Of a DNA stretch of 46,706 nt, positions 7,358-24,186 are shown one piece after another. Position 1 is the stretch's first letter, and each line of letters starts with the position of its first letter. The notes under the pieces are model-generated. The model was not told the origin of the DNA. It ran no database searches and saw only the letters and a program-made list of their open reading frames with translations. The DNA is taken from assembly GCA_900316015.1 (NCBI GenBank), contig ONBG01000044.1:1-46706 (forward strand), read 5' to 3'. The DNA comes from an uncultured Prevotella sp. (GTDB lineage: Bacteria > Bacteroidota > Bacteroidia > Bacteroidales > Bacteroidaceae). Both the position numbers and the translations under genes were made by a program.

Positions 7358-8392
7358 TTATGGACGAACAGGTCGAATTGGAAATCCAAAATAACGTATA
7401 TTATTACTTAAATAATACTCAGCATCGTAAGAGAATAAGCGGAAAGCATTGTAACTCTTAGATGTATAAACAGAGCTAGACCAATAATCCCCATTGATAT
7501 TATAGACGCTACGATGACCATATACATATCCAGCAGCTGGCAAGAAAATAGAATTTCCATTAACCTTACTTACAACTAGGTATCCAAGAACCCCATTTTG
7601 CTCTTTCCATGTCCAAGTACAACCCTTGACAAGTTCGTCTATTTCCTTTTGTGTAGGCATTCTCCAAGGACTACCGAGATTTACTGTAGCAGCATCATCC
7701 TCTGGATCAAGAGTTGTCTTGTTATCAGTAAAGCCGTTATACCCACAAGTATCACTTACACAATATTTGGTTAATGAGTTTTTACTTCCCTTACACCATT
7801 TGTACGTGCTCCATTCATAATTGTCTTTTGGAGTCACTTCACCCCAGGCATAATAATACCCGTAGCCTTCTGGATCCTTTGCCCCTATATTACGTGTAGC
7901 CCATTTAACACTAAGCCCTAGGTCAACATACTCAGGTAATTCATCGGCAAGAGTTGTAAAACTTTTCACTTCTCCATACCATGCCTTCCCATTGAGTAAA
8001 ATATAGGGACGATAATAATATTTAGTGTTTTTATCAAGATTTGGAATTGTAAATATAAAGGTTCCTGTTTTGTACCTACCTACAGAAATTTTACTGTCCC
8101 CAAAATTCGGATCATGATTCTTCTTTGACCAACAAATTCCCTCTTCACTCGCAACATTGACGTCAAGGTTGAGATTGCTTTCTACTATCATATATCCTCG
8201 CATAGAATTAGCGGAGACCAAATTTGGATCACCAGCTGTAAGGTTAAATGTATTTTCTGGCAACGTGAAGGTGAGGCTGTCGAAAGGTTGACTTTGCACA
8301 GTACCTTTTCCTCCATTCCATACAATAAACTGTTGTGCATTAGCAGTAAGTATCATAAAAGACAATGCCAATAAAGTAAATATTTTCTTCAT
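7358..8392 (-). CDS. exported protein with FISUMP/lectin-like C-terminal domain
   Basis: The 344-aa protein has a clear signal peptide (MKKIFTLLALSFMILTANAQ). A fibronectin-like beta domain follows (about 55-150, ending YGEVKSFTTL). A C-terminal domain (about 153-344) is typical of Bacteroidales Fibrobacter-succinogenes-major-paralogous (FISUMP, C-type-lectin-like) proteins: YVDLGLSVKWATRNIG, YYYAWGEVTPK, SPWRMPTQKEIDELVKG, IFLPAAGYVYG and DYWSSSVYTS. It is expected at the cell surface or outside the cell; ligand unknown. It follows the 162-aa gene by 11 bases and is the second gene of a unit driven by the promoter block at 8966-9123. No terminator other than the weak inverted repeat at 7091-7152 is seen. 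Confidence 0.8.
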   Translation of the reverse strand: MKKIFTLLALSFMILTANAQQFIVWNGGKGTVQSQPFDSLTFTLPENTFNLTAGDPNLVSANSMRGYMIVESNLNLDVNVASEEGICWSKKNHDPNFGDSKISVGRYKTGTFIFTIPNLDKNTKYYYRPYILLNGKAWYGEVKSFTTLADELPEYVDLGLSVKWATRNIGAKDPEGYGYYYAWGEVTPKDNYEWSTYKWCKGSKNSLTKYCVSDTCGYNGFTDNKTTLDPEDDAATVNLGSPWRMPTQKEIDELVKGCTWTWKEQNGVLGYLVVSKVNGNSIFLPAAGYVYGHRSVYNINGDYWSSSVYTSKSYNAFRLFSYDAEYYLSNNIRYFGFPIRPVRP

Positions 8393-8403
8393 AATTTTCT
8401 CGT

Positions 8404-8892
8404 TTAATGTTTTATAAACTTATAACTTACACCGCTACTTGTGCGGACAATATAAATTTGATTACGATGATTCGGAAGATTGATAACTGCACTCCCGCCA
8501 TCAGCATTGGAACTTGCTGAATTTACCAAGTTACCATCTATCATATAAACGCTAATACGCTCTCCCTTTGCAAGTCCTTTAGCAACAAGGGCATTGTCGA
8601 TTACATTGAACACAATTTTGCTTTTGTCTTTTACTTTAGGTAAATCAATGCTTGTGGAAGAGTTATCGCCCCAATAAAGTTTACTGACCTCAGAATAAGC
8701 ATATTCGACACTCGTTCCATTAGGCACATTAATTAGTAAGTTTGAGCCAAACACTACTGTCGGACTGTCCTTAAAAGCAAATTCCACTGTTTTGCCATTT
8801 GTTAGCAGCAGAAGTACTCCGCTATCAGCCCGAGCAGCCCATGGTATAAACCATAGGAGACACGAAAAAATAAAGGATAAATAATGTTTCAT
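8404..8892 (-). CDS. small exported protein with T9SS-like sorting tail
   Basis: The 162-aa product has a signal peptide (about 1-22, ending AARA), a beta-rich middle region (VLLLLTNGKTVEFAF, SKLYWGDN) and a C-terminal stretch resembling type IX secretion sorting tails (ISVYMIDGNLV, then IYIVRTSSGVSYKFIKH). Such short proteins are common in Prevotella next to surface lectin and BspA-like proteins, and their function is unknown. It is first in a two-gene unit, with about 150 bases of leader after the promoter block. A broken copy of its C-terminus survives at 11041-11140, showing that the gene was once duplicated here. Confidence 0.75.
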   Translation of the reverse strand: MKHYLSFIFSCLLWFIPWAARADSGVLLLLTNGKTVEFAFKDSPTVVFGSNLLINVPNGTSVEYAYSEVSKLYWGDNSSTSIDLPKVKDKSKIVFNVIDNALVAKGLAKGERISVYMIDGNLVNSASSNADGGSAVINLPNHRNQIYIVRTSSGVSYKFIKH

Positions 8893-8965: not shown

Positions 8966-9123
8966 GAGTTAAGAGCGCAACTCCAAGCAAACGCCTTCTT
9001 CTATACGGGTCTCCACTCCACCGTTCTCACGGCTTCAACATGGTAACAATTGCAAAATTATGTCTTCCATTTTAACTTTCCAAAATTTTAAGGAAGGAAG
9101 TGATCCTTATGGATGAAATGGAT
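8966..9123 (-). promoter_or_regulatory. duplicated promoter-leader block, copy 1
   Basis: This block is nearly identical to 14428-14587. On the minus strand it carries TTTG (9084-9081), exactly 20 bases, then TAATTTTGC (9060-9052), a full Bacteroidetes promoter, followed by about 80 conserved leader bases. A five-codon open frame M-L-K-P-stop (9041-9027) starts right after the predicted transcription start. It drives the 162-aa and FISUMP genes. Between it and 9365 (9124-9365) I see only a small hairpin at 9182-9204 and an 18-base near-palindrome at 9319-9336. Confidence 0.8.
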
Positions 9124-9449: not shown

Positions 9450-11015
9450 TTATTTCACGAAAATCTTCCGTGTCGTTCCATCGCTATATCTTATTATATT
9501 AATGCCTTTTCTCATTTCCTGTAGACGAATACCATTAGTATCGTAGATTTCTTTCTTCAGCTTGCCACCCGTAATCTGGTGATACTCAACACCTGTACTT
9601 GCGCCAGAATTTATAAATAAATATTCTGGTATCTCCCCAAAAGATCTTACATGCAGAGTTGCTGGCCCATAGACATCTGCCAAATTTGATTTCTCATTCC
9701 TTAGATGAGCAAATGGATTACCGTTTTTCAAATCAACAGCCCAAGCTCTATAATCTAAATACTGCATCGTGGATGTCCAATAAGAATCTTTAGCCAAGGG
9801 GGTGCCCACTTTCGATAAAGCAGCATTAATTTCTGGAAGATTCGAGTAAAGATCATTCATCTCTCCTAAGGATGGAAGATACCCAATCTCACCATTAGGA
9901 AATGTATAAGCGGCAGCTAAGCTAACTGCAGTATTCTTCGAACTGGAGAGAGCGCTATTAATTAAACATGTATTCTTTGCCCCTGCGTAGTCATTAACAG
10001 CTTCACCAGGGTTGGAGTTACTATAATTAGGAGAATTTTTCGCGACACCGGTTACGAATCCATCCGCTCCCCAAACAACGAGGCTCGAAGAAGCATCTTC
10101 TTTAGCAATAATAGCTTTTGTGTGATCTGTTATCAGCGCAATGCCAATCACATCATCATTACGGGAGGTATTCCAAGACGAATAACTTGTGAAAGCACCA
10201 TATTTATCGAAAATGTAAACACCATTTGAAGGAAGAACAACCTCTTTTAATGAAGAACCCTGATCAGGAATAATCTGAACATTGGTAAACTTTTTCCAAC
10301 CATCTGCTGACTTATAGTCTTCTACCGATCCTGCTGGGACCATAAGGACGCAATTCATATTAAAGCCATTGAAGTTTTCACCCACAAAAGTAGGAGGCGT
10401 TATAGCCTTGCATATCAAAATATCAACGTTATAACATTGGTTAAACACAAAACCCTTTTTCCAGCCTTCTTTACCACCCTCATCCCATCCAATTCTTTTA
10501 ACAGAAGAAGGTATTGTAATCTTCTTTAAGCCGATGCATTGATTCAAAGCTTCTGCTGTAATTTCCGATATACCTTCTGGAAATTCAATCTCTTTAAGAT
10601 TCCTGTCACCCCAAAAGAGACAACCGCCCATGTTTCCTTGATATTTTACGCCTTGGGGCAAAATTATTTTCTTTAGAGAATAGCAGCGTGAGAAGACATT
10701 AGATTCAAACTCATTGACTGTCGGTGGCAAAGTGACACTTGTGACATCTGACTCATAGAACGCCCCAGCGCCGAGCTTTGTCACCTTGTACGTCTTTTTA
10801 CCATCTGAAGCAAAAGAAGGTAGAACAATATCTCCAGAATAACTACTTCTAGAAAAATACCATGTACCCGTATAAGTAACCTTACACGTAGAATCGTCAA
10901 TGATCTCATAGCTGATACCATTGTCTGTGAACTTTCTCTCTCCTCCATAAGCTTTAACGCTTACACCACATAAAAGGGTCAAGGACAATAATAGCAAAGT
11001 AGATATTTTCTTCAT
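9450..11015 (-). CDS. BspA-like LRR protein with kinase-ectodomain-like C-terminal half
   Basis: The 521-aa exported protein has a signal peptide (MKKISTLLLLSLTLLCGVSV). BspA-type leucine-rich repeats (LRR_5, about 30-205) follow, with units such as VTSVTLPPTV, LKKIILPQGV and LKKITIPSSV, then a capping segment (VLMVPAGSVEDYKSADGWKK). From about residue 266 to 445 it carries a lectin-like domain (VIGIALITDH, GADGFVTGV, AAAYTFPNGEIGYLPSLGEM, SYWTSTMQYL, FAHLRNE) that aligns closely with the outer domain of the kinase encoded at 15229-17127. It ends in a short sorting-tail-like segment (IRLQEMRKGINII to KIFVK). BspA-like proteins bind host or partner cells; the ligand here is unknown. It is the last gene of the unit and is followed by a strong terminator. 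Confidence 0.85.
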   Translation of the reverse strand: MKKISTLLLLSLTLLCGVSVKAYGGERKFTDNGISYEIIDDSTCKVTYTGTWYFSRSSYSGDIVLPSFASDGKKTYKVTKLGAGAFYESDVTSVTLPPTVNEFESNVFSRCYSLKKIILPQGVKYQGNMGGCLFWGDRNLKEIEFPEGISEITAEALNQCIGLKKITIPSSVKRIGWDEGGKEGWKKGFVFNQCYNVDILICKAITPPTFVGENFNGFNMNCVLMVPAGSVEDYKSADGWKKFTNVQIIPDQGSSLKEVVLPSNGVYIFDKYGAFTSYSSWNTSRNDDVIGIALITDHTKAIIAKEDASSSLVVWGADGFVTGVAKNSPNYSNSNPGEAVNDYAGAKNTCLINSALSSSKNTAVSLAAAYTFPNGEIGYLPSLGEMNDLYSNLPEINAALSKVGTPLAKDSYWTSTMQYLDYRAWAVDLKNGNPFAHLRNEKSNLADVYGPATLHVRSFGEIPEYLFINSGASTGVEYHQITGGKLKKEIYDTNGIRLQEMRKGINIIRYSDGTTRKIFVK

Positions 11016-11040
11016 ATTTATTATTTTATAAACTTATATT

Positions 11041-11140
11041 TTACACCTTTACTTGTGCAGACGACATTAATTTCATAACAACGATTAGGATAATGGATAA
11101 CAGTACTTCCACCTGTAGCTCAACAAGATCTCCCTCTATC
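11041..11140 (-). pseudogene. 3' remnant of a paralogue of the 162-aa exported protein
   Basis: The minus strand reads GGSTVIHYPNRCYEINVV then CTSKGVKYKFIK and a stop at 11043-11041. This corresponds residue for residue to the C-terminus of the 162-aa protein (GGSAVINLPNHRNQIYIV, RTSSGVSYKFIKH). Upstream in another frame IEGDLVEL matches IDGNLVNS of that protein, so a frameshift is present and the first three-quarters are missing. It directly precedes the LRR gene, just as the intact copy precedes the FISUMP gene. Confidence 0.8.
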
Positions 11141-11770
11141 AAAGTTCTGGTATTTATGATAGAAATGCCAATAAACAAAAAAATCTATCAAAAGGATTAA
11201 AGTTCCAAAATATAACACGAAAGACTTATTCAAACAGTCATCTATACAAGACGGAGGCCCAGAAAAGATCCCAAGAGGGAAAGTTATTGATAAGATCGAC
11301 AAAACCAGAATAAATATATTCAGATAGAGAAAGAGTATGAAATAATGGTTTGGCAAATATTCCAGAAGGCATTTACTTTTTGAGTTATACAAGTCCTCAA
11401 AGATTTCTTTACAATCACTTTCACAATAATATCTCTTCCTTATATTTTGGATAATATGATGGTCACGGCGAGAAGTAAAACCGAAATTAACGCACGAAGT
11501 TGATAACATACTAAGTATCAATATCGATAACGAATAGATCCCTAATAGGACATATTGATAGCTTTCACTAACCGAATGCTTAAATGGATAAATATAGGCA
11601 TATCCATATCCAACAAAGACGAAAGAGATAGCGACAATAAAACTTACAATACAATTCGTCTTATGATTATCATTTTCTGCATACTGATTATGTAATTGCA
11701 AAGACAGATCGTCGCTTATACGTCTCTCATCTCTGCCGTTTGCTTCATTTTCCTGTGTTTCTGTACTCAT
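11120..11770 (-). CDS. hypothetical four-helix membrane protein
   Basis: The 216-aa product has two pairs of hydrophobic segments (about residues 40-62, 70-93, 142-165 and 180-200) separated by a hydrophilic stretch of about 45 residues, and a charged N-terminus. I do not recognise the family. The final residues (FDRGRSC) lie in DNA derived from the broken 162-aa paralogue, so its natural C-terminus may have been altered when the genes joined. It lies five bases after the 60-aa gene and belongs to the GLUG-protein unit. A role in anchoring or export of its neighbours is possible but unsupported. Confidence 0.65.
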   Translation of the reverse strand: MSTETQENEANGRDERRISDDLSLQLHNQYAENDNHKTNCIVSFIVAISFVFVGYGYAYIYPFKHSVSESYQYVLLGIYSLSILILSMLSTSCVNFGFTSRRDHHIIQNIRKRYYCESDCKEIFEDLYNSKSKCLLEYLPNHYFILFLYLNIFILVLSILSITFPLGIFSGPPSCIDDCLNKSFVLYFGTLILLIDFFVYWHFYHKYQNFDRGRSC

Positions 11771-11775
11771 AGCTG

Positions 11776-11958
11776 TTAATAATTTATCTCATTCGACATA
11801 TCTTCTTGACTATTCTCTTCCATATCATCCAAAATGACATTTTGCTTCGACCATTGAATGGTAGTTGAATCATCTTTTTTAGGCAAAGACGTTGTGATCA
11901 TTTGGCTTAGCTGAAATTCAATAATTTCAGAACATGGACTTATATAGACTTTCTTCAT
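11776..11958 (-). CDS. 60-aa Prevotella-type small protein
   Basis: The start MKKVYISPCSEIIEFQLSQM and the acidic tail (ILDDMEENSQEDMSNEINY) place it in a large, uncharacterised group of short Bacteroidales proteins that begin MKKxYxxP and often lie next to surface-protein genes. It has no true signal peptide. It starts two bases after the GLUG gene ends and is followed five bases later by the membrane-protein gene, so all three are cotranscribed. Function unknown. Confidence 0.75.
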   Translation of the reverse strand: MKKVYISPCSEIIEFQLSQMITTSLPKKDDSTTIQWSKQNVILDDMEENSQEDMSNEINY

Positions 11959-11960
11959 CG

Positions 11961-14273
11961 TTATTTGATTATTATTTTCTTATGATTATAAATATAAAGA
12001 CCGGGAGCTGTAGGCTTACCGTTCAGCTTTAATCCGTTTATAGTATACCATGCATCCCCTTCCAAAGTATTATATTTTATTGGCTTTACAGGTGTAGTAC
12101 AGCCATCATAATTAAACACATATGCTTTAGCTGCACCACTATTATTATAGAAATAAGCTTTTGTATTCCCAAAGGTTTCAGCATTATAACGATAAAAACC
12201 GACTGTATTATTGAGCATACTCAGCACAAAGGCATAACCTGTAGTGACTTTATCCAAAACAGGCGTTGACATGTCGCAACCTAAAAGGTCATTGTCTTTG
12301 AAGGCATCATCCTGAGAAGTAAAATCTCCCGTAACTGATTGCAATTTTGCCTGGCTATCTGTATTCCTTATAATGACTGCATGATTAAGAAAAGCACATT
12401 TTCCCACGTTCGTCAGATGGAATGATGATGTCTGCTCCTTAGCCTTGAATAATTCCGAATTATCCATAACATTAAAGCTTAATTTACTACAATAGAACGT
12501 ATTGTAATAATAGCCATCATTCCCATCATTACACGAAAGGAGAATATCTTGCCCTGGCATATCAGCCAATAATGGAGTATTTTCCCTTATAAATATCCAT
12601 TGAGCATCATCACCTATTTTCTTAAAGAGACCTTCACCAAACATGTCTGAAAGCGGAAGTTGAGTATTGTTCTTTGACTTATATTGATTATCTCCATTCC
12701 CTATAACTTCTTCTGCATAATAATTATCAGCAGGATCACTATAATTATCAGCAGGATCAGCACATATGCCACAAACATTGTGGTAACTAGAGAGCCTCCC
12801 AACATTGTATGAATACTTTACATTGCTACCATTTCCAACAACTCCACCAACATACCAATATCCTGATATTTTCCCTTTATTATAACAATAGGAAACTAAA
12901 CCAGACCAACTCTGCTCTCCTACAATACCTCCAACACTTTCAGCATCTAAGGCACTAATATCTCCATAATTGTAACAATGAGTTATAGAAGAAGTTCTTT
13001 GACTAGAAATGCCTCTGCTGAGACCACAAATCCCTCCTACTATACCACAAGCTGGTGCTGATCCCTTTGCTGACCCATAACTTATGATTGAGCCCTTATT
13101 ATAGCAATAAGAAATCGTATCATCGGAATTTATAGAACCACAAATGCCTCCAACGTACTTAGAGCTACCGCTTTTCCCTATTATAGTACCGAAATTAGCA
13201 CATTTCTTAATCGTTTTATGTTGACTTGCGATACCACCGACATACTCTCCGATAGCTTCCACTTTACCATAATTCACACATCCAACAATGATGTGTAACC
13301 CATCGGAACCACTAATACCTCCCGCATCACCTCCTTCAGATGTAACCTTACCATAATTCGTACAATTAAATATGCTACCTGAATTGGCAATTCCTGACGC
13401 ATAACGAGTTTTCGCAACAATATTTCCGTAATTCTTGCAATTTTCAATTAATTTGCTAGAAGACGAAATACCCGAAGCATAATATTTTGAGGAAATTGTC
13501 CCATAGCTTACACAATTTATAATAAGTTGACCATCTTGTGAACATATGCCTGCAGCTCGATGACTATTTGTCACCTTCCCTCTAAAAGTACATCCAGAAA
13601 TAACTTGACTTTTATTTAAAATATAGCCGTATTGACATATTCCACCTGCTCCATATCCATCACCGTCAGAGGAAATAGAACCTTGAACCTCACAATTCAT
13701 AATAGCATCCCCTTCGAACTGACTACATATACCTCCACAACCATAACTACTTCCTATATAAACATCTAACAACTTCAATTTTTTTATATATAAGCCTCGA
13801 AAACAATAAAAAAGACCAGGGGAAGTTCCCCTATCTTGTCTCTGTACTAACCCTTTTATCGTATGCCATTGCCCATCAAGGCTCCCCTCAAACGGTTTAT
13901 TATTATGCAATTCTAAAGCTGCAGGATTAACAAGGTCGTAATCATCATCTAAAACATTTTCATTTAGGATAATATCCGAAGTCAATTTAAAATATTTCCC
14001 TTTATAAGATTGTCCAGCATTTATTTGTTGTATTAAAAAAGCTAATTGCTGAGGAGTTTTGATTTGATATGCCGTGGATTCCGTCTCTCCATCACCCCCC
14101 CCGAATTTAGATGCGATAGTTCCATCCCAAGCTGTCTGAGCAAATCCTTTATTGCCCAGCAGACAAATAATAATACAAATTAATCTCAAAAAATCACCAC
14201 CAACAGAATGTTTCTGTTTTATTGTCCACAATCTACTCATAATTAAAATATTAAAGTTGAACCTACATTGCAT
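11961..14273 (-). CDS. large GLUG-repeat surface protein with sorting tail
   Basis: The 770-aa product is an exported beta-helix-type adhesin-like protein. After a hydrophobic signal segment (FLRLICIIICLLGNKGFAQ, about residues 28-46) comes an entry domain (TAYQIKTPQQLAFLIQQI, LTSDI, FEGSLDGQWHTIKGL). Many degenerate GLUG repeats of about 22 residues follow, with cores such as CxNYGxVxxxxxxxGGI, over residues 160-510. The C-terminal segment GDAWYTINGLKLNGKPTAPG then LYIYNHKKIIIK is a Prevotella-type sorting tail. The true start may be the Met at codon 12 (14240), closer to the signal segment. It is first in a unit driven by the promoter block at 14428-14587. Base composition is AT-rich relative to flanking genes. 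Confidence 0.82.
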   Translation of the reverse strand: MQCRFNFNILIMSRLWTIKQKHSVGGDFLRLICIIICLLGNKGFAQTAWDGTIASKFGGGDGETESTAYQIKTPQQLAFLIQQINAGQSYKGKYFKLTSDIILNENVLDDDYDLVNPAALELHNNKPFEGSLDGQWHTIKGLVQRQDRGTSPGLFYCFRGLYIKKLKLLDVYIGSSYGCGGICSQFEGDAIMNCEVQGSISSDGDGYGAGGICQYGYILNKSQVISGCTFRGKVTNSHRAAGICSQDGQLIINCVSYGTISSKYYASGISSSSKLIENCKNYGNIVAKTRYASGIANSGSIFNCTNYGKVTSEGGDAGGISGSDGLHIIVGCVNYGKVEAIGEYVGGIASQHKTIKKCANFGTIIGKSGSSKYVGGICGSINSDDTISYCYNKGSIISYGSAKGSAPACGIVGGICGLSRGISSQRTSSITHCYNYGDISALDAESVGGIVGEQSWSGLVSYCYNKGKISGYWYVGGVVGNGSNVKYSYNVGRLSSYHNVCGICADPADNYSDPADNYYAEEVIGNGDNQYKSKNNTQLPLSDMFGEGLFKKIGDDAQWIFIRENTPLLADMPGQDILLSCNDGNDGYYYNTFYCSKLSFNVMDNSELFKAKEQTSSFHLTNVGKCAFLNHAVIIRNTDSQAKLQSVTGDFTSQDDAFKDNDLLGCDMSTPVLDKVTTGYAFVLSMLNNTVGFYRYNAETFGNTKAYFYNNSGAAKAYVFNYDGCTTPVKPIKYNTLEGDAWYTINGLKLNGKPTAPGLYIYNHKKIIIK

Positions 14274-14427
14274 ATAGCATTCCGAATAATTACAGTAAGC
14301 ATCACTCCCAACGATACCTTGGTTTTTAGATATTAGTTACTGATCCATATAGAAATAAGGCGTGGGAGTTATTACTGGCCATTTGCTCTCATCTCACTGG
14401 ACGAATTATTATCTGTAAATTCAGAAA

Positions 14428-14587
14428 GAGTTAAAAGCGCAACGCCAAGCAAACGCCTTCTTCTATACGGGTCTCCATTCTACCGTTCATTCACGGCTTC
14501 AGCATGGTAACAATTGCAAAATTATGTTTTCTATTTTATCTTTCCAAAATTTTGAGGAAGGAAGCGACCCTTATGGATGAAATGGAT
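14428..14587 (-). promoter_or_regulatory. duplicated promoter-leader block, copy 2
   Basis: This block matches 8966-9123 over its whole length with scattered substitutions and one 2-base insertion. TTTG (14548-14545), 20 bases and TAATTTTGC (14524-14516) are unchanged. The leader frame M-L-K-P-stop (14505-14491) is conserved, with a synonymous Leu codon change. It drives the GLUG-60aa-membrane-LRR unit, leaving about 240 bases of 5' leader before the GLUG gene. That leader (14274-14427) also holds a weak inverted repeat (ACTCCCA 14304-14310 / TGGGAGT 14363-14369). Confidence 0.8.
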
Positions 14588-14643
14588 GAGATCCTATTTT
14601 TAATAGGTATGAAAAAAAGTAATGGCATTCCAAATAAATGTAT

Positions 14644-14652
14644 TACCTTTGC
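14644..14652 (+). promoter_or_regulatory. -7 box of the HTH-protein/kinase unit
   Basis: TACCTTTGC matches the -7 consensus. No TTTG is present 19-22 bases upstream, so the promoter may be weak or activator-dependent. Its position supports translation from 14676 rather than from the ATG at 14622, which lies upstream of it. Confidence 0.55.
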
Positions 14653-14675
14653 AACATCAAATACTTTCTAATGAT

Positions 14676-15227
14676 ATGGTTTTAGACAAAAAAGCACAAG
14701 AATTAATTACGAAACAATTTGGACGAGACCTGAGTATTCCTACGGATTTTAACGATCTCTCTGACGATATAAAGGATAAGACTGGCAAGCTTCTCAGCGT
14801 GAATACCCTGAAACGGCTCTTTGGCTGGCTGCCTGGCGTGGAGCCAAGGGAGAGCACATTAGAAATCTTAGCCCGCTATGCTAAATATGGATCCTGGAAA
14901 ATCATGGAGAAGGAATGGACGGGAAAGTCTTCTGAGATAGGAAAGATCTCCGCAACGATCGTCTACCCTGAGCAACTCCATAACGGACAAACCGTTGTCA
15001 TTAAGTATGAGCCGAACCGGACACTGCGGTTGAAGAAGATCAACGGCAATGATTTTGAGATTTTAGATGCTTCCAGTTCAAAACTCCAGAAGGGTGATAT
15101 CATGGTAATCCTCAGTATCAACAAGGGATTGCCTTTCATTGCCAAGGAAGTATGGCGCAAGGGACAGAACATAGGGAGCTATCAGGGTGGAAAAGGCAGT
15201 GGTATTCAATTCATAGAGATCATCTGA
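14676..15227 (+). CDS. HTH-like protein coupled to the kinase gene
   Basis: From the Met at 14676 the product has 183 aa. An upstream in-frame ATG at 14622 would add 18 residues but precedes the -7 box. The N-terminal 65 residues match a widespread Bacteroidales module resembling a DNA-binding helix-turn-helix: LITKQFGRDL, FNDLSDDIKDKTGKLLSVNT, LKRLFGW, then PRESTLEILARYAKYGSWK. The C-terminal part (about 80-183) is beta-rich (ATIVYPEQLHNGQTVVIKYE, LQKGDIMVILSINKG) and unrecognised. It has no signal peptide or membrane segment, so it is cytoplasmic. Its stop is one base from the kinase start, so the two are coupled. It may be a regulator controlled by the kinase; that is inference. Confidence 0.75.
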   Translation: MVLDKKAQELITKQFGRDLSIPTDFNDLSDDIKDKTGKLLSVNTLKRLFGWLPGVEPRESTLEILARYAKYGSWKIMEKEWTGKSSEIGKISATIVYPEQLHNGQTVVIKYEPNRTLRLKKINGNDFEILDASSSKLQKGDIMVILSINKGLPFIAKEVWRKGQNIGSYQGGKGSGIQFIEII

Positions 15228-15228
15228 T

Positions 15229-17127
15229 ATGTCAAATTCATCACTTCTCTTTTCATCCAATGGTGGCAATATTAGCGAAGACGTACCTATAGCCATCGGC
15301 GCTACTTCCTTGTGTTACCGTGTGAACGTGGGCGGACGCATCATGTTCAAGAAGGTGCTGAAGGATGACTTGCGCTTTGACCCGCGCTACCTGAACCTGT
15401 TCAAGAAGGAATATGAACTGGGACAGGAAATGAACCATCCCAACATCGTACGTTATTTGGACTTTAAAGACGATGCCAAGGAGGTTGCTATCTATGCGGA
15501 ATTCATAGACGGCACACCGCTTGACCAGTTCTTAGAATACCATCCCAACTACTTCAAAAATAAGAGACGCCGGCGCCAGTTCCTTGAGGAGTTGCTCTCA
15601 GCCGTGGATTATCTGCACCAACGGCAAATCCTCCACTTAGATTTAAAGCCTGAAAATATCCTCATCACAACCATCGGAACGCACGTCAAGCTCTCCGACC
15701 TGGGATTCTGCTACCAGGACGGATTCCCCTTTAATGCTGGAGGCACGCCGGAATATGCGGCACCGGAGTTATTCAACACAAGTGAGCAGAAAGACGGTCC
15801 GCACCTGTCTCCTGCCTCTGATATCTATTCCTTGGGGAAGATCTTCCAGGAGATGAACATCGCGAAAAAGAGTATCATCAAGAAATGCTTGGAGGAGAAT
15901 CCTGTCGACCGATACCATAACATACCTGAGTTACGGCGAGCCCTTCTTCCACGACGTGTCCTAAGATGGGTTTTCATCACCCTGCTCATCATTGCGGCGG
16001 TTTGTGGCGGAGAGTATTGGTATATGGTAAAAGACTTAGGGGTTGTCTCGCACGATGACTTTCTGGTCGATGGATACCGGCAGGATACCACGGACATCGA
16101 CTTGATGATATGCGACAAGGATTATCATCTCTACCAACCCAAGGACTGGAACCCTGCAGACAGTGCCAAAGCCTTGGGCGTTGCCGTGCTGACTGACCAT
16201 TCTTATTACGTGTTCGCCAGGAAGTTCCCTACCATGACGGGTGTCCAATTCGGCAAAGATGGACTCATCGACGGGGTCACGACAACACCCAGCGACGGTA
16301 CTAATGGACGCTGCCATTCTGCGGGCAGTGATTTCACAGGACCGGAGAACTACAGGAAGTTGCGACCGCTTGCTTTCGAAGGCAAGGCTTGTGCCTTGAA
16401 CATCGGATACACATTTCCCAATGGCAGGGAGGGATATATTCCACCTTTGGGCGAGGTCATCGACATCCGCATGCACACCAAGGATGTAAACCGACTGTTG
16501 CAGATCATCCATGGGGATACCATCTATGAGGGGATCTGGACTTCTTGCTTGCAGTATAAGCCCACGCGGATGTGGGCCATGGGCTTCCAACCTGGTGCCA
16601 TACCTTACGCGCAGCTGAGGCAGGAGAATATCCTGACCCATTTCAACTTGGACATACCTGTCATGCCGTCGCCGCGCGCCAATGCGGAAAGGGCGAAAGA
16701 GAAGGTCGACTTCATTCCCGCCCCTGTCTTGCTCGAGTATATCCTACGTCCCGACTACGAGGCTTTCATCAGCCTACTGAAGAAGACAGGCTACCAACTG
16801 CTGACAGAAGGCAAGCAACAACAGATATGGTCGAAAGTGCAGATGCCCTCAAACGACAAATACAAGCTATACCGCAACTCGCGCGTGCTCCTCAACGGCA
16901 AGAAACTGCAGAACCTTTGCCTTTATTGCACGAAGGATCTCTTCTTGTTTTTCAGCGAGCTCTATGCCAAGGACTATCATTTCATCCATATTGATACGGA
17001 CAATGAAGGGCGAAATCACTTCGTCTACGTGAGCCCGTCAGTGCCGATCACCGTCAGCTATGCGCTTTACAATGTAGACAATGGCGTTTCCCTTTATCGC
17101 ATCTCTTTCAAGAGAAACAACCCATAG
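15229..17127 (+). CDS. membrane-spanning Ser/Thr protein kinase with lectin-like outer domain
   Basis: The 632-aa protein has a Hanks-type kinase domain at about 20-240. Recognisable are the ATP-site lysine (MFKKVL, Lys41/42), the helix-C Glu61 (FKKEYELG), the catalytic loop LHLDLKPENIL (Asp138, Asn143), metal-binding Asp157 in SDLGF, and YAAPE. The usual HRD and DFG appear as HLD and DLG, and the glycine loop is poor. One membrane helix follows (about 246-262, WVFITLLIIAAVCGG). The outer part at about 288-470 aligns with the secreted LRR protein (ALGVAVLTDH, GKDGLIDGV, GYTFPNGREGYIPPLGEV, IWTSCLQY, YAQLRQEN). A further region (490-632) is unrecognised. It is coupled to the HTH-like gene. It probably senses an envelope signal and phosphorylates cytoplasmic targets. 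Confidence 0.9.
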   Translation: MSNSSLLFSSNGGNISEDVPIAIGATSLCYRVNVGGRIMFKKVLKDDLRFDPRYLNLFKKEYELGQEMNHPNIVRYLDFKDDAKEVAIYAEFIDGTPLDQFLEYHPNYFKNKRRRRQFLEELLSAVDYLHQRQILHLDLKPENILITTIGTHVKLSDLGFCYQDGFPFNAGGTPEYAAPELFNTSEQKDGPHLSPASDIYSLGKIFQEMNIAKKSIIKKCLEENPVDRYHNIPELRRALLPRRVLRWVFITLLIIAAVCGGEYWYMVKDLGVVSHDDFLVDGYRQDTTDIDLMICDKDYHLYQPKDWNPADSAKALGVAVLTDHSYYVFARKFPTMTGVQFGKDGLIDGVTTTPSDGTNGRCHSAGSDFTGPENYRKLRPLAFEGKACALNIGYTFPNGREGYIPPLGEVIDIRMHTKDVNRLLQIIHGDTIYEGIWTSCLQYKPTRMWAMGFQPGAIPYAQLRQENILTHFNLDIPVMPSPRANAERAKEKVDFIPAPVLLEYILRPDYEAFISLLKKTGYQLLTEGKQQQIWSKVQMPSNDKYKLYRNSRVLLNGKKLQNLCLYCTKDLFLFFSELYAKDYHFIHIDTDNEGRNHFVYVSPSVPITVSYALYNVDNGVSLYRISFKRNNP

Positions 17128-17246: not shown

Positions 17247-17852
17247 ATGAACATGAAGAAACTGACGATGATCGCCGTGCTGGTCCTTGCAGCATGGATG
17301 CCAGGACATGCGCAATCACAAGGAGACAGGTTGGATTTCACGCACAACAGGATCACGATCGGAGGGGGCGCAGCCTATACGCCGACGCATATTCCCAAGG
17401 ACTATTACCAAAGGCATGCGAAAGGATCGTCGTCCTTGGAGCTGTCTCTCGACTATGCTCACCTATGGGATCTCGCCGAGCACCATGCCTTGGGATTCGA
17501 GATCAACGGCTATCAGTCGCACTTAGACAGGAACGGATGCAACATCTTCTACGGTGGGGCAAGCGTTGTCTACAACTTCCGCACCGACAACGGATGGGTA
17601 TTCTCTGCCTCCGAGGGCATGGGGTACGCTGGCAATGACTTTGACGAGGGCCTCCACGACAAATGGGACGAAGGGGGCATCGGCGTGTATTCCAAGATAG
17701 GAGCGCACTACAAGCTCACCAAACACTTAGGAATCGGAGCCGAAGCAAGGCTCTTGGGCAGTTTCTTCCGTGTCCAATATGACGACGGGGGAGACGAGGT
17801 CAAGGAGATCGTGCAGAGCGGCATCAGCGCGCAACTGCGATGGTATTTTTAG
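17247..17852 (+). CDS. outer-membrane beta-barrel protein
   Basis: The 201-aa product has a signal peptide (MNMKKLTMIAVLVLAAWMPG then HAQ). Alternating amphipathic strands with frequent Gly and aromatic residues follow (ITIGGGAAYTP, SLELSLDYAHLWDL, VYNFRTDNGWVFSASEGMGY, GVYSKIGAHYKL), and it ends in the classic barrel terminus ISAQLRWYF. It is probably an 8- to 10-strand barrel in the outer membrane. It follows the kinase by about 120 bases, has its own promoter and ends before a strong terminator. Whether it works with the kinase is unknown; adjacency and orientation make it worth testing. Confidence 0.82.
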   Translation: MNMKKLTMIAVLVLAAWMPGHAQSQGDRLDFTHNRITIGGGAAYTPTHIPKDYYQRHAKGSSSLELSLDYAHLWDLAEHHALGFEINGYQSHLDRNGCNIFYGGASVVYNFRTDNGWVFSASEGMGYAGNDFDEGLHDKWDEGGIGVYSKIGAHYKLTKHLGIGAEARLLGSFFRVQYDDGGDEVKEIVQSGISAQLRWYF

Positions 17853-18933: not shown

Positions 18934-20688
18934 TTATCCTAACACTCCCGATGGATCAGGATTGTTGCGGATTGCCTTGTTATACTGCAACTCGTAATTG
19001 GGGATGCAGAAGTTCAAGCCGGGACAAACATAGCCGTCTTTCAACTTAAACTGGTACTTTTCGATATGGTTACTGCCTTCATAGGTCAGGTCGTAGCCCA
19101 TTTTCAGTCGCTTATAGTCGTATGGGATGATCCCTTCGCCCCAGAACTCAATGCGTTTCTGCCGGATGAGTTCTTGGGTAAAGTCCGACAGGGTCGTTGC
19201 CGAGCACGCATAAGGGGTGGGATCTGAGGAGGTAGCCTCGCAACGGTAGGTGTTCATGAAGTCGTTGAGCAACCGCACCCCAGCACTCACGCCATTGACA
19301 TGAGCGGCAGCCTCAGCCTCGATAAAGTACATTTCCTCAACGCGCATCACGGGAATATCCACGGCTGCACCCGTCTTATAATCGCTGACATTCCCATTTC
19401 CCGGCTTGAACTTCAGGCCCGTATAAGCTGGGAACTTGGCGAACTTGTCTGCCGTCATGTCGGTCGTGTACTTGGCTGCGGATGTTGCCTTGCCCGCATC
19501 TTCCGGCGCGATCCACGTGGAACGACGCCAGTCGGCGGCATTCATCTCACTATACAACTGGGCATCGATGCTGCGCGATGCACCATAGGAGGCATTTCCT
19601 GCCACCCCAAAGTCGGCATCGGCAGAGATAAAAGAAGTAAAGCTCTTCCACGACCAGTCGTCGTCCAACGTATTGTCACTCTCGTCCTTGATGTCATCAC
19701 TGGCGATCTGCTCGGCAAGCAGCCAGGCTCCATTGGCAGAGTTAAAGCCTGTCGTGGCATTATACCACTCGCTCTTGGAGAGAGGGGCATGTCCTTCCAT
19801 GGCAGCCTCCGCGCATTTCATGGCATTGGCAAAGCACTCCTTTGCCGTTGTCACGCCACATTTGTCATAGCCCTCTAAGTTGGAATCTCCTTCATGGGCG
19901 ACCTGCTCGGCCAACTCTTCCGGGTCATTCTCAAACTGAGAGCCCATCCACAACCACAGGCGGGCTTTCAGTCCGTTCACCACGGCGGCATCAGCATGGT
20001 TGGCATCGGTACGGTCGTAGCCTTCCAATAGTTTCGCGGCACGGTTCAAGTCGGTCAGGATGAAGCGGTACATCTGATAGAAAGGCGCACGAGGATTGTT
20101 GAACCCGTCTGCCTGCTGCATGCTTTCCGTCACGATCGGCACGGTAAGTCCCTGCACGCTATCCGCCTTCGCCTGGGCATCCAACTGGCTATATCCCGTG
20201 TTCCGATAGAGGTATAGCTCAGTCAGGTAGAGATAGGCAAGGGCTCGATAGGCAAGGGCATTGCCCACCGTTGGGGCATCTGCATCACTCGCATCGTTGA
20301 CTCCTGTGCCGGCAGCTAACACTAAGTTGGCCTTGGAGATGATGCTATAGTAGAGGTTCCACGTATCATAGGTATAGGTATAAGTGGCTCCTAAGTAGTT
20401 GCATTCACTGAAAGCACTGTAATAATCATACCCTGCTTGCGCGATTGGGATCTGCCCAGTCATGGCATCGAGCTCTAAACTCTGCCCTGCAAAGCCGCAG
20501 GCACCATAGCCATACCCGATCTTCATCATCTGCTGCGCTACCGCATTGCCTAAGCCATCGATGGCATTGGTCGACTTGTTCACTTGCTCCTGCACCATAC
20601 CGTTGGTGGGATAGACTGTATCCAAGCAGCTGCAGAGCAAGGGGGTAGCAGCTGCCAAAATGATGACTTGCTTGATATATCTGTTCAT
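18934..20688 (-). CDS. SusD/RagB-family substrate-binding lipoprotein
   Basis: The 584-aa lipoprotein has a signal peptide with lipobox LLCSC. SusD hallmarks include the N-terminal TPR-type helical core (WNLYYSIISKANLVLAAG, ALAYRALAYLYLTELYLYRN) and the C-terminal pattern EEMYFIEAEAAAHVNG, then LIRQKRIEFWGEGIIPYDYK and an ending IPNYELQYNKAIRNNPDPSG. It caps the SusC pore on the outer face and delivers ligand. It begins 18 bases after the SusC stop and is followed by a lipoprotein gene. No enzyme genes belong to the unit, so the substrate cannot be inferred; RagAB-like peptide uptake is as possible as glycan uptake. Confidence 0.93.
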   Translation of the reverse strand: MNRYIKQVIILAAATPLLCSCLDTVYPTNGMVQEQVNKSTNAIDGLGNAVAQQMMKIGYGYGACGFAGQSLELDAMTGQIPIAQAGYDYYSAFSECNYLGATYTYTYDTWNLYYSIISKANLVLAAGTGVNDASDADAPTVGNALAYRALAYLYLTELYLYRNTGYSQLDAQAKADSVQGLTVPIVTESMQQADGFNNPRAPFYQMYRFILTDLNRAAKLLEGYDRTDANHADAAVVNGLKARLWLWMGSQFENDPEELAEQVAHEGDSNLEGYDKCGVTTAKECFANAMKCAEAAMEGHAPLSKSEWYNATTGFNSANGAWLLAEQIASDDIKDESDNTLDDDWSWKSFTSFISADADFGVAGNASYGASRSIDAQLYSEMNAADWRRSTWIAPEDAGKATSAAKYTTDMTADKFAKFPAYTGLKFKPGNGNVSDYKTGAAVDIPVMRVEEMYFIEAEAAAHVNGVSAGVRLLNDFMNTYRCEATSSDPTPYACSATTLSDFTQELIRQKRIEFWGEGIIPYDYKRLKMGYDLTYEGSNHIEKYQFKLKDGYVCPGLNFCIPNYELQYNKAIRNNPDPSGVLG

Positions 20689-20706
20689 AGACTTACATGT
20701 TTAAGA

Positions 20707-23700
20707 TTAGAACTTGACGGTGATCCCGCCGGAGATACTACGAATGGGCTGGAAACGTTCGAAACTATAGCTGGTGTCATCCTGTACGCGTACCTGTCCA
20801 TCAAGGGCTGAGCGCGGGTCAAAGCCATGGCGCTTGGTCCAATAATAGACATTGTCGCAAGAGGCATAAACGCGCAGGCTGCTCAAGCCGAGCTTCCTCA
20901 CCCAGATACCGGGGAAGGTATAGCCTACGCTGACGTTCTTGAAGGTCAAGGAGTTGGAACTGGTGAGGAAACGGGAGGACACGCCTGCTGCGTTGTCATC
21001 GCCATACTGGAAACGGGGGATGGTGCTCGTCGTATTCTCTGATGTCCAAGCGTTCCGCAGGTCGGTGGAAAGGTTGCCACGCTCGGAGATACTGGTGGGC
21101 GACTGCATGAGCGTCATATACCCGTAGTCGAGAGCTTTGCCACCTAAGGAATAGAGGAAGCTGGCACTCAGGTCAAATCCGTAAGCAGTGAACATGGTAC
21201 CAAAACCGCCGTATACCTTAGGATTGGCATCGCCACAGAGATAGTAATCCGCCGAGGAATACTGGGTGGTCGTGCCCAAGCTACCATCGCTGTTGGTGAC
21301 ATACCAGGTTGAGCGTCCCTGACTGTCCGGTCCTGCATACTTTGGAAGGTACCAGGAATAGAGGGGAAGTCCCTCTCCGATGAAGTTATAGGTAGCGAGA
21401 TTCTTATAGCCTCCATGTCCATCCACCACAGCCATCTTGTTCTCGTCGGGCAGATAGGTTACCTCATTCTTGTTGTGCGAGAGGTTGAAGTTAACGCTCC
21501 AGTCCACCTTCTTCGTCTTGATAATATCCCCGCTCAGGCTCAGTTCAATGCCTTGGTTGACCATATCCCCCACATTGTCATAATAGCCACCATAGCCTAA
21601 GGACATTGGGGTGGTAAACCACAACAGCATATCCGTCGTCTTCCGATGGTAGTAATCGACACTTCCGGTGAGGCGATGGTGGAAAAGCTCGAATTCTATG
21701 CCCGCGTTGAAGTTGCCATTGGTCTCCCAGGTGATGTCTTCCTTTCCTTTCGAGGAGAACGTAAGCGTCGCGGAGCCATTGACCGTGGAAATCTTGTAGA
21801 AGTCGGTATAGCGGAAATCACCGATTCTATCGTTACCCTGTTCCCCGTAACTGGCTTTCACCTTCAGGAGGTCGACCCAATTGGTTTTCGGGAACCAGGT
21901 TTCTTTGCTTGTGATCCAGGCTCCGCCCACCGACCAGAAGTTACCCCAACGATGGTTTTCGGCAAAGCGTGACGACCCGTCACGACGGAAGGAGAACGAA
22001 GCATAGTAACGACTGTCGTAATCGTAGTTAGCACGGAACATATAGCCTTCTACGTTATATTTCGTTGTATAGCCTTCTGCTGAGGTCAAGGTTGATGCGC
22101 CATAGAGGTCTTGGTCCTTGCCATACGTGAAGAGATGGCTCTTGACCGCTCCTGTCGTCGTGCCGTCATCCCGCGTGTATTCATGCCCCAACAGCAGATA
22201 GAGAGAGTGCTTACCAAAGTTCTTGCTCCAGTTCAGCAACTGTTGGTAGTTGAGGGAATAGGTGCGGTAATGGTAGGCAGAGATCCCACCACCATCGGAC
22301 GTACCCACGTAGCCATAGTCTGGGCTGCTGCCAGAACGCATCCTGTTCTCCGTGTCATAGACATTGATGTTCAGCGTGAGCTTGAAATCCTTCAGGAAGG
22401 TGATGTCGGCATAGCCCGCCAAGCCGAAGGCATTGCTATTGTTATTGTAAATATTAAGCTTGTCTTCCTGGATATAATTGCCACCTTTGGCATTTGGGCG
22501 GAAGATCCCTGTAGCTGCCCCATCGCCATAGTCGTACATCTTGCCATTGGCATCTGTCATGATATTCCCATTTCCATCCCGTAGGTAGACCGGATAGACA
22601 CAAGGAGTCGAGAGCGCGCCATAAAAAGAATAATGGTTCTGGTCGGCATTGCTATGGATATAACGTGCCGTTCCCCCCACTTTTAGCCACTCCCTGGCCT
22701 GGTAGTCTACTTTCATCATACCGTTATACCGCTCATAGCCAGCTCCGTAAGTGATGCCATCATTCTTCAGGTAGCTGCCACTGCCATAGAACTGGAATTG
22801 GTCGGTGCCGCCGTTGATGCTCATATTGTATTCCTGTCGCACGCCGGTACGGATCGCCGCATCTTTCCAACTATCCGGGTAGAGCATATATTTCTTCCCA
22901 TTGTTTTCTACAACCTTCCCAAGAGTAGCATTCGGGTTCAGCTTGCCGTTCTGCCCGATCAGCATCTGTCCGTCAGGCACGGTGTAGACAATATATCCCA
23001 GTCCGCCATACGTCTGGTCCTTCGCCATGGTACTGTTGGCATTCACCCAAGCTGAGTAAGGCGACATTCCCTTAGCGTTCGTATTATAATTGTACAACGC
23101 CTTGTAATATTGCTCATAGTATTCGCCAGGATTCGTGATATAATCATAGTCGACATACCCGTTGGAATTGGCACCCCACTTGGCATCCACCGTGATTGCT
23201 GCCTTGCCTTTCGTCGCATGCTTTGTCGTGATCAGGATGACACCGTTCGCCCCGCGTGCGCCATACAAGGCATTGGAAGCTGCGTCCTTCAGGACAGAGA
23301 TGCTCTCAATATCCTGCGGGTTGATATCACTATAATAACCACTATACGGCAGACCGTCGACAACGATCAACGGAGCATTCCCCGCATTGATACTACCCAC
23401 GCCACGGATACGGATGGTGGGACTGCTTGCAGAAGGGTCGTTGCTTTCCACCATCTGGACGCCCGCCACTTTACCATTGATTGCCTCAACAGCATTGCTC
23501 AGCTGTCTCTGACTAATATCCGTGCTTTTCACGATGCCCGCCGACCCCGTGAAGCTCTCTCTCTTCTGTTTACCGAAAGCAACGACGATGATATCATCCA
23601 AATTCCGGGAATCAACCTGCATCGTAATCTTCATGTTAGCCTTGATGGCAACACGCTGTTGCACCATGCCCATATAAGTAATCACTAACATCCGCGCTGA

Positions 23701-23904
23701 CGAAGGAAGGTTCACCAACCGGAACTTACCATCTATATCAGTAACCGTACCTAACTTGGTACCTTCCACACGGACGGAAGCTCCTGTAATGGGCTGACCG
23801 TCATCTGCGGCGATCACCTCTCCAAATACCTGCTTCACCTGGGCAAAAGCACAGGAAAGAGAAAATAGAATGCAGGTAAAAAGCATCGAAATCCTTTTAT
23901 CCAT
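20707..23904 (-). CDS. SusC/RagA-family TonB-dependent outer-membrane transporter
   Basis: Starting at the Met at 23904 the product has 1065 aa; the longer frame to 23940 adds 12 unlikely residues before the signal peptide (MDKRISMLFTCILFSLSCAF). A carboxypeptidase-regulatory-like domain (FGEVIAADDGQPITGASVRV) precedes the plug domain with the SusC signature (AVEAINGKVAGVQMVESNDP, TIRIRGVGSINAGNAPLIVV, IESISVLKDAASNALYGARG, ANGVILITTK). A 22-strand barrel follows, ending GGITVKF. It imports a ligand captured by SusD using TonB energy. It is first in the susC-susD-lipoprotein unit. A possible weak promoter lies upstream, with TTAATTTCG near 24025. No regulator (sigma/anti-sigma, hybrid two-component) lies next to it. 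Confidence 0.94.
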   Translation of the reverse strand: MDKRISMLFTCILFSLSCAFAQVKQVFGEVIAADDGQPITGASVRVEGTKLGTVTDIDGKFRLVNLPSSARMLVITYMGMVQQRVAIKANMKITMQVDSRNLDDIIVVAFGKQKRESFTGSAGIVKSTDISQRQLSNAVEAINGKVAGVQMVESNDPSASSPTIRIRGVGSINAGNAPLIVVDGLPYSGYYSDINPQDIESISVLKDAASNALYGARGANGVILITTKHATKGKAAITVDAKWGANSNGYVDYDYITNPGEYYEQYYKALYNYNTNAKGMSPYSAWVNANSTMAKDQTYGGLGYIVYTVPDGQMLIGQNGKLNPNATLGKVVENNGKKYMLYPDSWKDAAIRTGVRQEYNMSINGGTDQFQFYGSGSYLKNDGITYGAGYERYNGMMKVDYQAREWLKVGGTARYIHSNADQNHYSFYGALSTPCVYPVYLRDGNGNIMTDANGKMYDYGDGAATGIFRPNAKGGNYIQEDKLNIYNNNSNAFGLAGYADITFLKDFKLTLNINVYDTENRMRSGSSPDYGYVGTSDGGGISAYHYRTYSLNYQQLLNWSKNFGKHSLYLLLGHEYTRDDGTTTGAVKSHLFTYGKDQDLYGASTLTSAEGYTTKYNVEGYMFRANYDYDSRYYASFSFRRDGSSRFAENHRWGNFWSVGGAWITSKETWFPKTNWVDLLKVKASYGEQGNDRIGDFRYTDFYKISTVNGSATLTFSSKGKEDITWETNGNFNAGIEFELFHHRLTGSVDYYHRKTTDMLLWFTTPMSLGYGGYYDNVGDMVNQGIELSLSGDIIKTKKVDWSVNFNLSHNKNEVTYLPDENKMAVVDGHGGYKNLATYNFIGEGLPLYSWYLPKYAGPDSQGRSTWYVTNSDGSLGTTTQYSSADYYLCGDANPKVYGGFGTMFTAYGFDLSASFLYSLGGKALDYGYMTLMQSPTSISERGNLSTDLRNAWTSENTTSTIPRFQYGDDNAAGVSSRFLTSSNSLTFKNVSVGYTFPGIWVRKLGLSSLRVYASCDNVYYWTKRHGFDPRSALDGQVRVQDDTSYSFERFQPIRSISGGITVKF

Positions 23905-24186
23905 ACTAACAAAATTAATAAAACACACTAAACGATTCACTCACTCTCTCTGCAATAGCAGTCGATTCAACATCGACGAAAGGCAGGAACACCCCTACAG
24001 AAATGTTCAACTAACGTCGGCGAAATTAAACAATATTTTGCTATCCACCAACAAAAACATAAATTATTTCACTTTTCTACGAATAAAATTACCATTTTAT
24101 TATTATTTGAGTCATATTTACGCCATTTTGTTACCTCCAATCTTTTTCTATATCACCCTGATCTAAAAAGAAGAAAGGAACATAAA

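Follow-up and report, generated by a model that had tools for sequence, protein, structure and literature searches.

Kinase and exported neighbor share a domain

Why should a membrane kinase carry the same domain as a protein exported from a neighboring gene? The question is raised by contig ONBG01000044.1 of an uncultured Prevotella sp., analyzed here as a whole stretch of 46,706 nucleotides (the window) and belonging to a home genome (G000) of 3.3 Mb that is 97% complete. A preliminary description of this DNA had proposed that a Ser/Thr kinase and a leucine-rich repeat (LRR) protein encoded nearby have a domain in common, that the kinase displays it outside the membrane, and that it is also present in an exported FISUMP-type protein. 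The open reading frames (ORFs) of the kinase and the LRR protein were found where that description had placed them, and the features on which the argument turns are as follows, with signal peptides here and below called by a simple hydropathy rule.

15229..17127, + strand: membrane Ser/Thr kinase, 632 amino acids (ORF list, Pfam, hydropathy)
16147..16626, + strand: shared outer domain of the kinase, residues 307-466 (pairwise alignment)
16666..17124, + strand: extra C-terminal part of the kinase, residues about 480-632 (ORF list)
14622..15227, + strand: partner protein, 201 amino acids, putative DNA-binding regulator (ORF list)
9450..11015, - strand: exported BspA-type LRR protein, 521 amino acids (Pfam; signal peptide by hydropathy rule)
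10488..10787, - strand: BspA LRR region of that protein, residues 77-176 (Pfam)
9693..10175, - strand: shared domain of that protein, residues 281-441 (pairwise alignment; sub-threshold Lcl_C match)
7358..8392, - strand: exported FISUMP-type protein (Pfam)

The two domains align over kinase residues 307-466 and LRR-protein residues 281-441 with 51 of 162 positions identical (31%; 93.6 bits, E = 2e-24), and the local alignment score of 234 compares with a mean of 30.9 (standard deviation 4.7, maximum 54) in 500 shuffles. With the outer part of the kinase alone as query, the match widens to 292-466 and 266-441, in agreement with the ranges proposed earlier (about 288-470 and about 264-445). Across the whole home genome, only the kinase itself and the LRR protein, with copies about 6 kb apart, match the domain, a search with a 4-row profile had the identical outcome, and the probability of a second copy falling within 7 kb by chance is about 0.004. 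Among the sequences compared, the best match of the kinase domain is the LRR neighbor (95.1 bits), followed by an exported protein (63.5 bits) and a kinase (61.6 bits) from other species. Pairwise and profile comparisons thus confirm the shared domain, which is real and specific.

The kinase is classed as Hanks-type, with putative activity, from its PF00069 match at residues 24-213 (112.5 bits, cut-off 31.7, E = 3e-32) and its catalytic-loop motifs. The motif check covered HxDxKxxN, DFG-type, APE and glycine-loop patterns and located HLDLKPEN at 136, DLG, a DFG variant, at 157 and APE at 178. One predicted transmembrane helix (residues about 244-262, from hydropathy) is followed by the outer part, the C-terminal portion of which (about 480-632) has no family match in Pfam. 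The LRR protein is assigned by LRR_5 (PF13306; 70.3 bits, cut-off 27.7, E = 1.8e-19).

This form of the domain is rare, being found at E ≤ 1e-3 in 3 of 301 genomes of the family, the home genome among them; a pattern scan of a species-genome collection gave 2 loci, apparently those already met in the family genomes, and wider relatives are more frequent, a profile (E ≤ 1e-4) finding them in 23 of 393 genomes from the order. One relative, at L009 1405-2016 (- strand), lies in a region that appears prophage-like by eye, beside LamG-like and methylase-like ORFs (also by eye), and matches PHROG 4245, of unknown function. A search of solved structures with the shared domain gave nothing convincing. 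A six-sequence domain tree, with a very long kinase branch, did not resolve the relationships (approximately unbiased test: p = 0.129 for grouping the kinase and LRR-protein domains, p = 0.050 for grouping the two kinase domains). Fresh copying of the neighbor's domain into the window kinase is unsupported, the copies being 31% identical.

The proposal that the FISUMP protein at 7358-8392 has the same domain did not hold at the sequence level: its pairwise scores of 33 and 35 are those of shuffled sequences (means 31.3 and 35.0, respectively), and profile-profile comparison gave a probability of 3% over 18 columns. A distant common fold is nevertheless possible. The likeness to the Lcl_C (PF07603)/DUF1566 and FISUMP lectin-like domains consists in a match of the LRR-protein copy to Lcl_C below threshold (19.9 bits, cut-off 34.9), such as the FISUMP protein likewise has (22.4 bits), and in an exported protein at locus L146 with the shared domain and a FISUMP domain in a single chain, so that the two travel together; the difference is that the shared domain stays below the Pfam cut-off and lacks a significant FISUMP match. 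The kinase copy has no Lcl_C match in Pfam, and a literature search found no paper containing the word FISUMP.

A conserved gene pair with swapped outer domains

The partner gene stops 1 bp before the kinase gene starts, and its product has no match in Pfam, NCBIfam or PADLOC; a helix-turn-helix (TLKRL...STLEILA) was seen by eye only. Of 301 genomes from the family, 109 have a relative of the partner; for the order the count is 37 of 198 (E ≤ 1e-8, some via the N-terminal part alone). We fetched 126 loci from the family, which together with the window make 127; N-terminal-only partner matches, some others among the matches listed and matches beyond these were left unfetched, and one fetched locus (L106) has no row as its partner and kinase calls overlapped. 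These 127 loci hold 129 partner genes, of which 103, the window's included, have a kinase no more than 700 bp away and 26 do not. Outside the family, 7 of 8 full-length partner sites that were fetched adjoin a kinase (L219-L226, the exception being L222), and in another genus (L006/L147) the same two genes recur with the same outer domain at 31% identity over 488 columns. The partner is probably a member of a putative new family of DNA-binding regulators. Separately, the N-terminal part of the partner heads an 832-amino-acid protein at L227 80-2575 (- strand) with sub-threshold NACHT/STAND matches, and the same part is matched by about a dozen open frames of comparable length from other families within the order.

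The outer domains of the pair kinases are swapped. Among 99 kinases (those below 290 amino acids were excluded from these counts and from the own-locus comparison below), 35 carry BspA-type LRRs (LRR_5), 2 the window domain, 1 a LamG-like domain and 50 other sequences; 2 (L153 and L171) share their outer domains with exported proteins of other loci only, and 9 have almost none. Mapped onto the kinase tree, the LRR label changes at least 6 times; 31 of the 32 kinases in the one main group, which spans several genera, are LRR kinases. The kinases of the window and L066 branch close to the base of the larger group and are joined with a support of only 35.

Three of five kinases almost free of an outer domain (L085 5818-8016, L087 and L092) and two of three in short-kinase pairs (L096 and L102) are immediately preceded by a codirectional LRR gene whose product is predicted to be exported, so the LRR part may act in trans. 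In addition, the kinase at L119 8543-10165 (+ strand) has an outer domain with a sub-threshold NTF2-like (Cds6_C) match that is 63% identical to the end of a 641-amino-acid ORF in another genome (L145).

The pair might instead belong to an anti-phage or other conflict system, the likeness to surface proteins reflecting phage-binding domains. The kinase domain does resemble those of the PADLOC kinases mad6 and PD-T4-6, a related outer domain lies in the prophage-like region (by eye) of L009, and the L227 protein joins the partner's N-terminal part to sub-threshold NACHT/STAND matches. The 25 PADLOC matches listed, however, cover only the kinase domain and its edge, and the partner and three proteins from the exported side have none. 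We regard this alternative as very improbable, and assignment to a defense system was considered and dropped.

Some kinases mirror their neighbors

When outer domains were compared with the non-kinase ORFs of their own loci (E ≤ 1e-3), a match was found for 14 of 35 LRR kinases, one of the two window-type kinases and 1 of 53 others (L156). The sharing also has a preferred position. For pairs in the partner-kinase order, 11 of 28 LRR kinases have a divergent LRR gene as the pair's nearest upstream gene, compared with 2 of 33 kinases whose outer domain is of another kind or missing (Fisher p = 0.0035); of the other places examined in the same LRR-kinase loci, 2 of 85 are occupied by LRR genes (p = 2e-6 versus the first upstream place). 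These counts omit loci without a visible upstream gene, and the Fisher test leaves out three short or cut kinases (L096, L102 and L104) and the two window-type kinases; in L104, whose kinase is truncated at a contig end, a divergent LRR gene is present as well, and the frameshift-broken kinase of L110 was classed by its next open piece. By genus, the 11 cases divide into 8 (g20), 1 (g30), 1 (g10) and 1 (g14). LRR genes anywhere in the locus, counted over the first 80 loci, accompany 12 of 24 LRR kinases and 8 of 37 others (p = 0.028), a test from which 19 loci lacking a usable outer domain were omitted; an LRR ORF, in some cases a piece of the kinase, is present in 10 of these. Domain sharing between kinase and neighbor recurs in relatives of the window pair, among LRR kinases and in L156, with an excess tied to position in the LRR kinases; the tree-aware form of the test lacked power.

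At L156, the outer part of the kinase is 93% identical in protein sequence to a predicted exported protein encoded beyond a divergent LRR gene. The two DNA copies, at whole-contig positions 1-601 and 5895-6492, are inverted and 92% identical (556/604), which looks like recent copying or conversion. The LamG-like label of this domain comes from sub-threshold matches, and a module of an arabinofuranosidase (presumably of family GH51) matches part of it at 65% identity, which favors glycan binding. The 6.5-kb contig that makes up this locus comes from a fragmented assembly and has both ends inside the repeat; at each end, 127 bases are identical to the end of L214 (LRR, sub-threshold cohesin, dockerin). 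Misassembly is possible, although the sequence differences between the copies argue for two real ones.

Such sharing could also arise from domain reuse without functional coupling, the kinases drawing outer domains from the genome's pool of surface modules through recombination within local clusters. The main genus, g20, is indeed rich in LRR stretches (20-116 LRR_5 matches in each of nine genomes), kinases without LRRs also have an upstream LRR gene in 8 of 61 loci (versus 13 of 214 other places, p = 0.10), the window cluster bears a local duplication (below), the L156 copies have the identity expected of recent copying or conversion, and L153 and L171 match exported proteins of other loci only. 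Abundance in g20 leaves the placement of the divergent LRR gene unaccounted for, however; the excess next to LRR kinases is position-specific, operator-like repeats lie between pair and divergent gene, and the window domain has only two copies in its genome. Reuse alone is in our view a somewhat unlikely account.

Candidate operators and an apparently duplicated exported unit

An exact 7-bp tandem repeat with a period of 10 is present in the upstream 250 bp of 37 of 125 partner genes, which are not 37 independent cases since several come from near relatives (e.g., L169 and L193). In 20 block shuffles the count averaged 2.0 (standard deviation 0.8, maximum 4), and other periods from 7 to 23 reached at most 11 (period 9), with periods 11, 19 and 21 at 8-10. 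The repeat lies a median of 85 bp before the called partner start and often reads like TTGGTTCAtcTTGGTTC, with locus-specific variants (examples are L130 3157-3173 and L131 12052-12068). Nine of the 11 mirrored LRR loci have it in the intergenic region shared by the two divergent genes, and in L091 it reaches the called start. Searched with at most one mismatch in five genomes, TTGGTTCATCTTGGTTC gave six sites, all at partner loci; one of the two in G268 lies between a divergent gene for a predicted exported Sel1-repeat protein and a 426-amino-acid gene. A variant pattern, TTGGTMCATTTTGGTMC, was less exclusive, with matches in 4 of 6 genomes; one of two sites in G158 and one of three in G256 are on other contigs, another G256 site is about 4 kb away, and the control pattern matched once, in G158. 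These repeats are probable operators of a new regulator family.

The window contains the following further features.

14573..14589, + strand: tandem repeat with a 9-bp period, weak candidate operator (repeat scan)
14428..14587, no strand assigned: 160-bp repeat, copy 1, between the GLUG and partner genes (genome search)
8966..9123, no strand assigned: 160-bp repeat, copy 2, located 74-231 bp before the 8404 gene, with FISUMP after that gene (genome search)
11961..14273, - strand: GLUG-motif protein, predicted exported, the first gene divergent from the partner-kinase pair (ORF list, Pfam, signal-peptide rule)
11120..11770, - strand: small membrane protein (by eye), between the GLUG and LRR genes (ORF list)
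11016..11137, - strand: decayed tail of an 8404-like gene, directly upstream of the LRR gene (similarity search)
8404..8892, - strand: small exported protein, unit partner of FISUMP (ORF list)
17247..17852, + strand: small protein (signal peptide; sub-threshold beta-barrel match), about 120 bp 3' of the kinase and possibly part of its operon
18934..23940, - strand: SusD- and SusC-like pair adjoining the cluster (similarity)

The two 160-bp copies are in the same orientation and identical at 147 of 160 positions (92%), with no third copy in the genome, and a one-mismatch copy of the 9-bp-period repeat lies at 9109, inside the second. The decayed tail matches over 11024-11137 at 53% identity (E = 1.2e-4) with one stop. 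Elsewhere in the genome, at G000:C33:98742-100247 (L244, L248), a second, stop-free pair of 8404-like and FISUMP genes stands in the same order, which makes this a recurrent two-gene exported unit. Given the duplicated element, the decayed tail and the pair on C33, the cluster looks like duplicated exported-protein units, apparently two behind one element, with the kinase pair divergent from one of them. The 8404 protein has a sub-threshold match to a type IX secretion system (T9SS) tail in NCBIfam, and the ends of other exported proteins look similar by eye.

A proposed local switch for surface-protein genes

We propose that the pair at 14622-17127 acts as a local signaling switch for the adjoining exported-protein genes, a reading to which we assign a probability of about 0.5. 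The kinase would be anchored in the inner membrane and extend its lectin-like domain into the periplasm. The display outside the membrane first suggested is not supported if taken to mean outside the cell: in a Gram-negative cell, a domain beyond a single inner-membrane helix would be in the periplasm. Together with the FISUMP identity, this is the part of the earlier interpretation that lacks support; the shared domain and the recurring likeness of kinases to their neighbors are supported. A ligand, such as a glycan or peptide also met by the surface protein, would bind the outer domain of the kinase; the resemblance of sensor domain to product suggests the shared ligand. Binding would change phosphorylation of the partner, which may bind the promoter DNA between the divergent genes and, by way of the duplicated element, the DNA before the FISUMP operon as well, so that output of the surface-protein genes would be altered, in whichever direction. 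Regulation of the exported genes gains support from the operator-like repeats of the family and the duplicated element of the window.

Several observations weigh against this switch. In the window itself, the immediate divergent gene encodes the GLUG protein and the LRR gene that mirrors the kinase lies two genes further, the upstream region of the partner has no period-10 repeat, the simple glycine-loop pattern was not detected within the first 250 residues of the kinase, and profile searches gave the partner neither a known family nor a solved structure. In L066, the nearest relative, the kinase carries the same domain, but its genome (87% complete) has no second copy. Across loci, 8 of the 11 divergent-LRR cases come from one genus (g20), the kinase tree yields 5 independent pairs, too few for significance, and three LRR kinases outside the family (L220, L224 and L225) have no LRR gene within the 6.5 kb fetched. 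Two candidate generalizations were also rejected: LRR outer domains are no closer to their own neighbors than to others (permutation p = 0.25), and a second copy of the partner upstream region in the locus is not enriched (20 of 125 versus 14 of 122 in the control).

The kinase could alternatively monitor cargo, sensing exported proteins in the periplasm by like-with-like contact, or by competition for a secretion or folding partner, and tuning their synthesis to export capacity. It would explain why the domain type equals that of a co-encoded protein in the window, L156 and 14 of 35 LRR kinases, and why outer-domain-poor kinases (L085, L087, L092, L096 and L102) have a same-direction LRR gene upstream; the possible T9SS tails, sub-threshold in the 8404 protein and similar by eye elsewhere, would suit it too. 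The lack of pair-specific LRR matching speaks against it, as do L066, in which no cargo copy was found, and the 21 of 35 LRR kinases without a match in the fetched locus, some of these loci being cut by contig ends. We consider cargo monitoring unlikely.

Beyond the window, the mirrored layout of kinase and surface protein is part of a larger, apparently undescribed pattern. Tentatively, and as a possibility more than an expectation, the local switch may be one member of a Bacteroidales class in which every kinase-regulator pair has an operator of its own and serves a single exported-protein cluster; the periplasmic domain would be kept or recaptured as a look-alike of the product (LRR, lectin-like or LamG-like) and would sense surface-protein contacts or export.

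Comparison with known systems

Membrane Ser/Thr kinases with PASTA domains (PknB/Stk1) resemble the window kinase in that their outer domain also occurs on exported proteins, the PASTA domain being found in penicillin-binding proteins as well. They differ in the domain itself, since the window kinase has no PASTA match in Pfam and the NCBIfam model PknB_PASTA (80.8, cut-off 450) covers its kinase domain only, and in that window-type pairs have varied outer domains and a dedicated partner gene. The likeness to BspA-type LRR surface proteins is direct, the window neighbor and many kinase outer domains being LRR_5; at the level of search results, literature searches found no report of BspA LRRs as kinase outer domains and no description of a kinase with a mirrored-neighbor layout. 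To our knowledge, how Bacteroidales choose among their many BspA-type and lectin-like surface proteins is largely unknown.

The view that no described system has this layout accordingly stands for a kinase and falls for the underlying logic, which is closest to that of SigI/RsgI in Clostridium thermocellum. There, too, a gene pair includes a membrane sensor whose outer module is of a secreted-protein kind: the modules vary (CBM3, PA14 and GH10), the GH10 module of RsgI6 is 57% identical to the secreted Xyn10D, and the sensor's regulator controls genes for secreted proteins (PMC4711584). The sharing of a module with an exported protein is likewise found in the window. The differences are that RsgI modules stand on the outer cell surface and their polysaccharide binding has been measured (PMC4711584), whereas the window domain would be periplasmic and its pair is known from sequence; and that the cytoplasmic anti-sigma domain and sigma factor there are replaced here by a kinase domain and a putative DNA-binding protein of no Pfam or NCBIfam family. 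Because this output arm differs, the window pair is not a member of SigI/RsgI. If the proposed switch is correct, one regulator pair per surface-protein cluster could be read from a genome, the sensor domain hinting at the ligand and the short operator naming the target, so that ligand and regulon would be testable locus by locus, and the RsgI principle would have been rebuilt with a kinase in a Gram-negative phylum.

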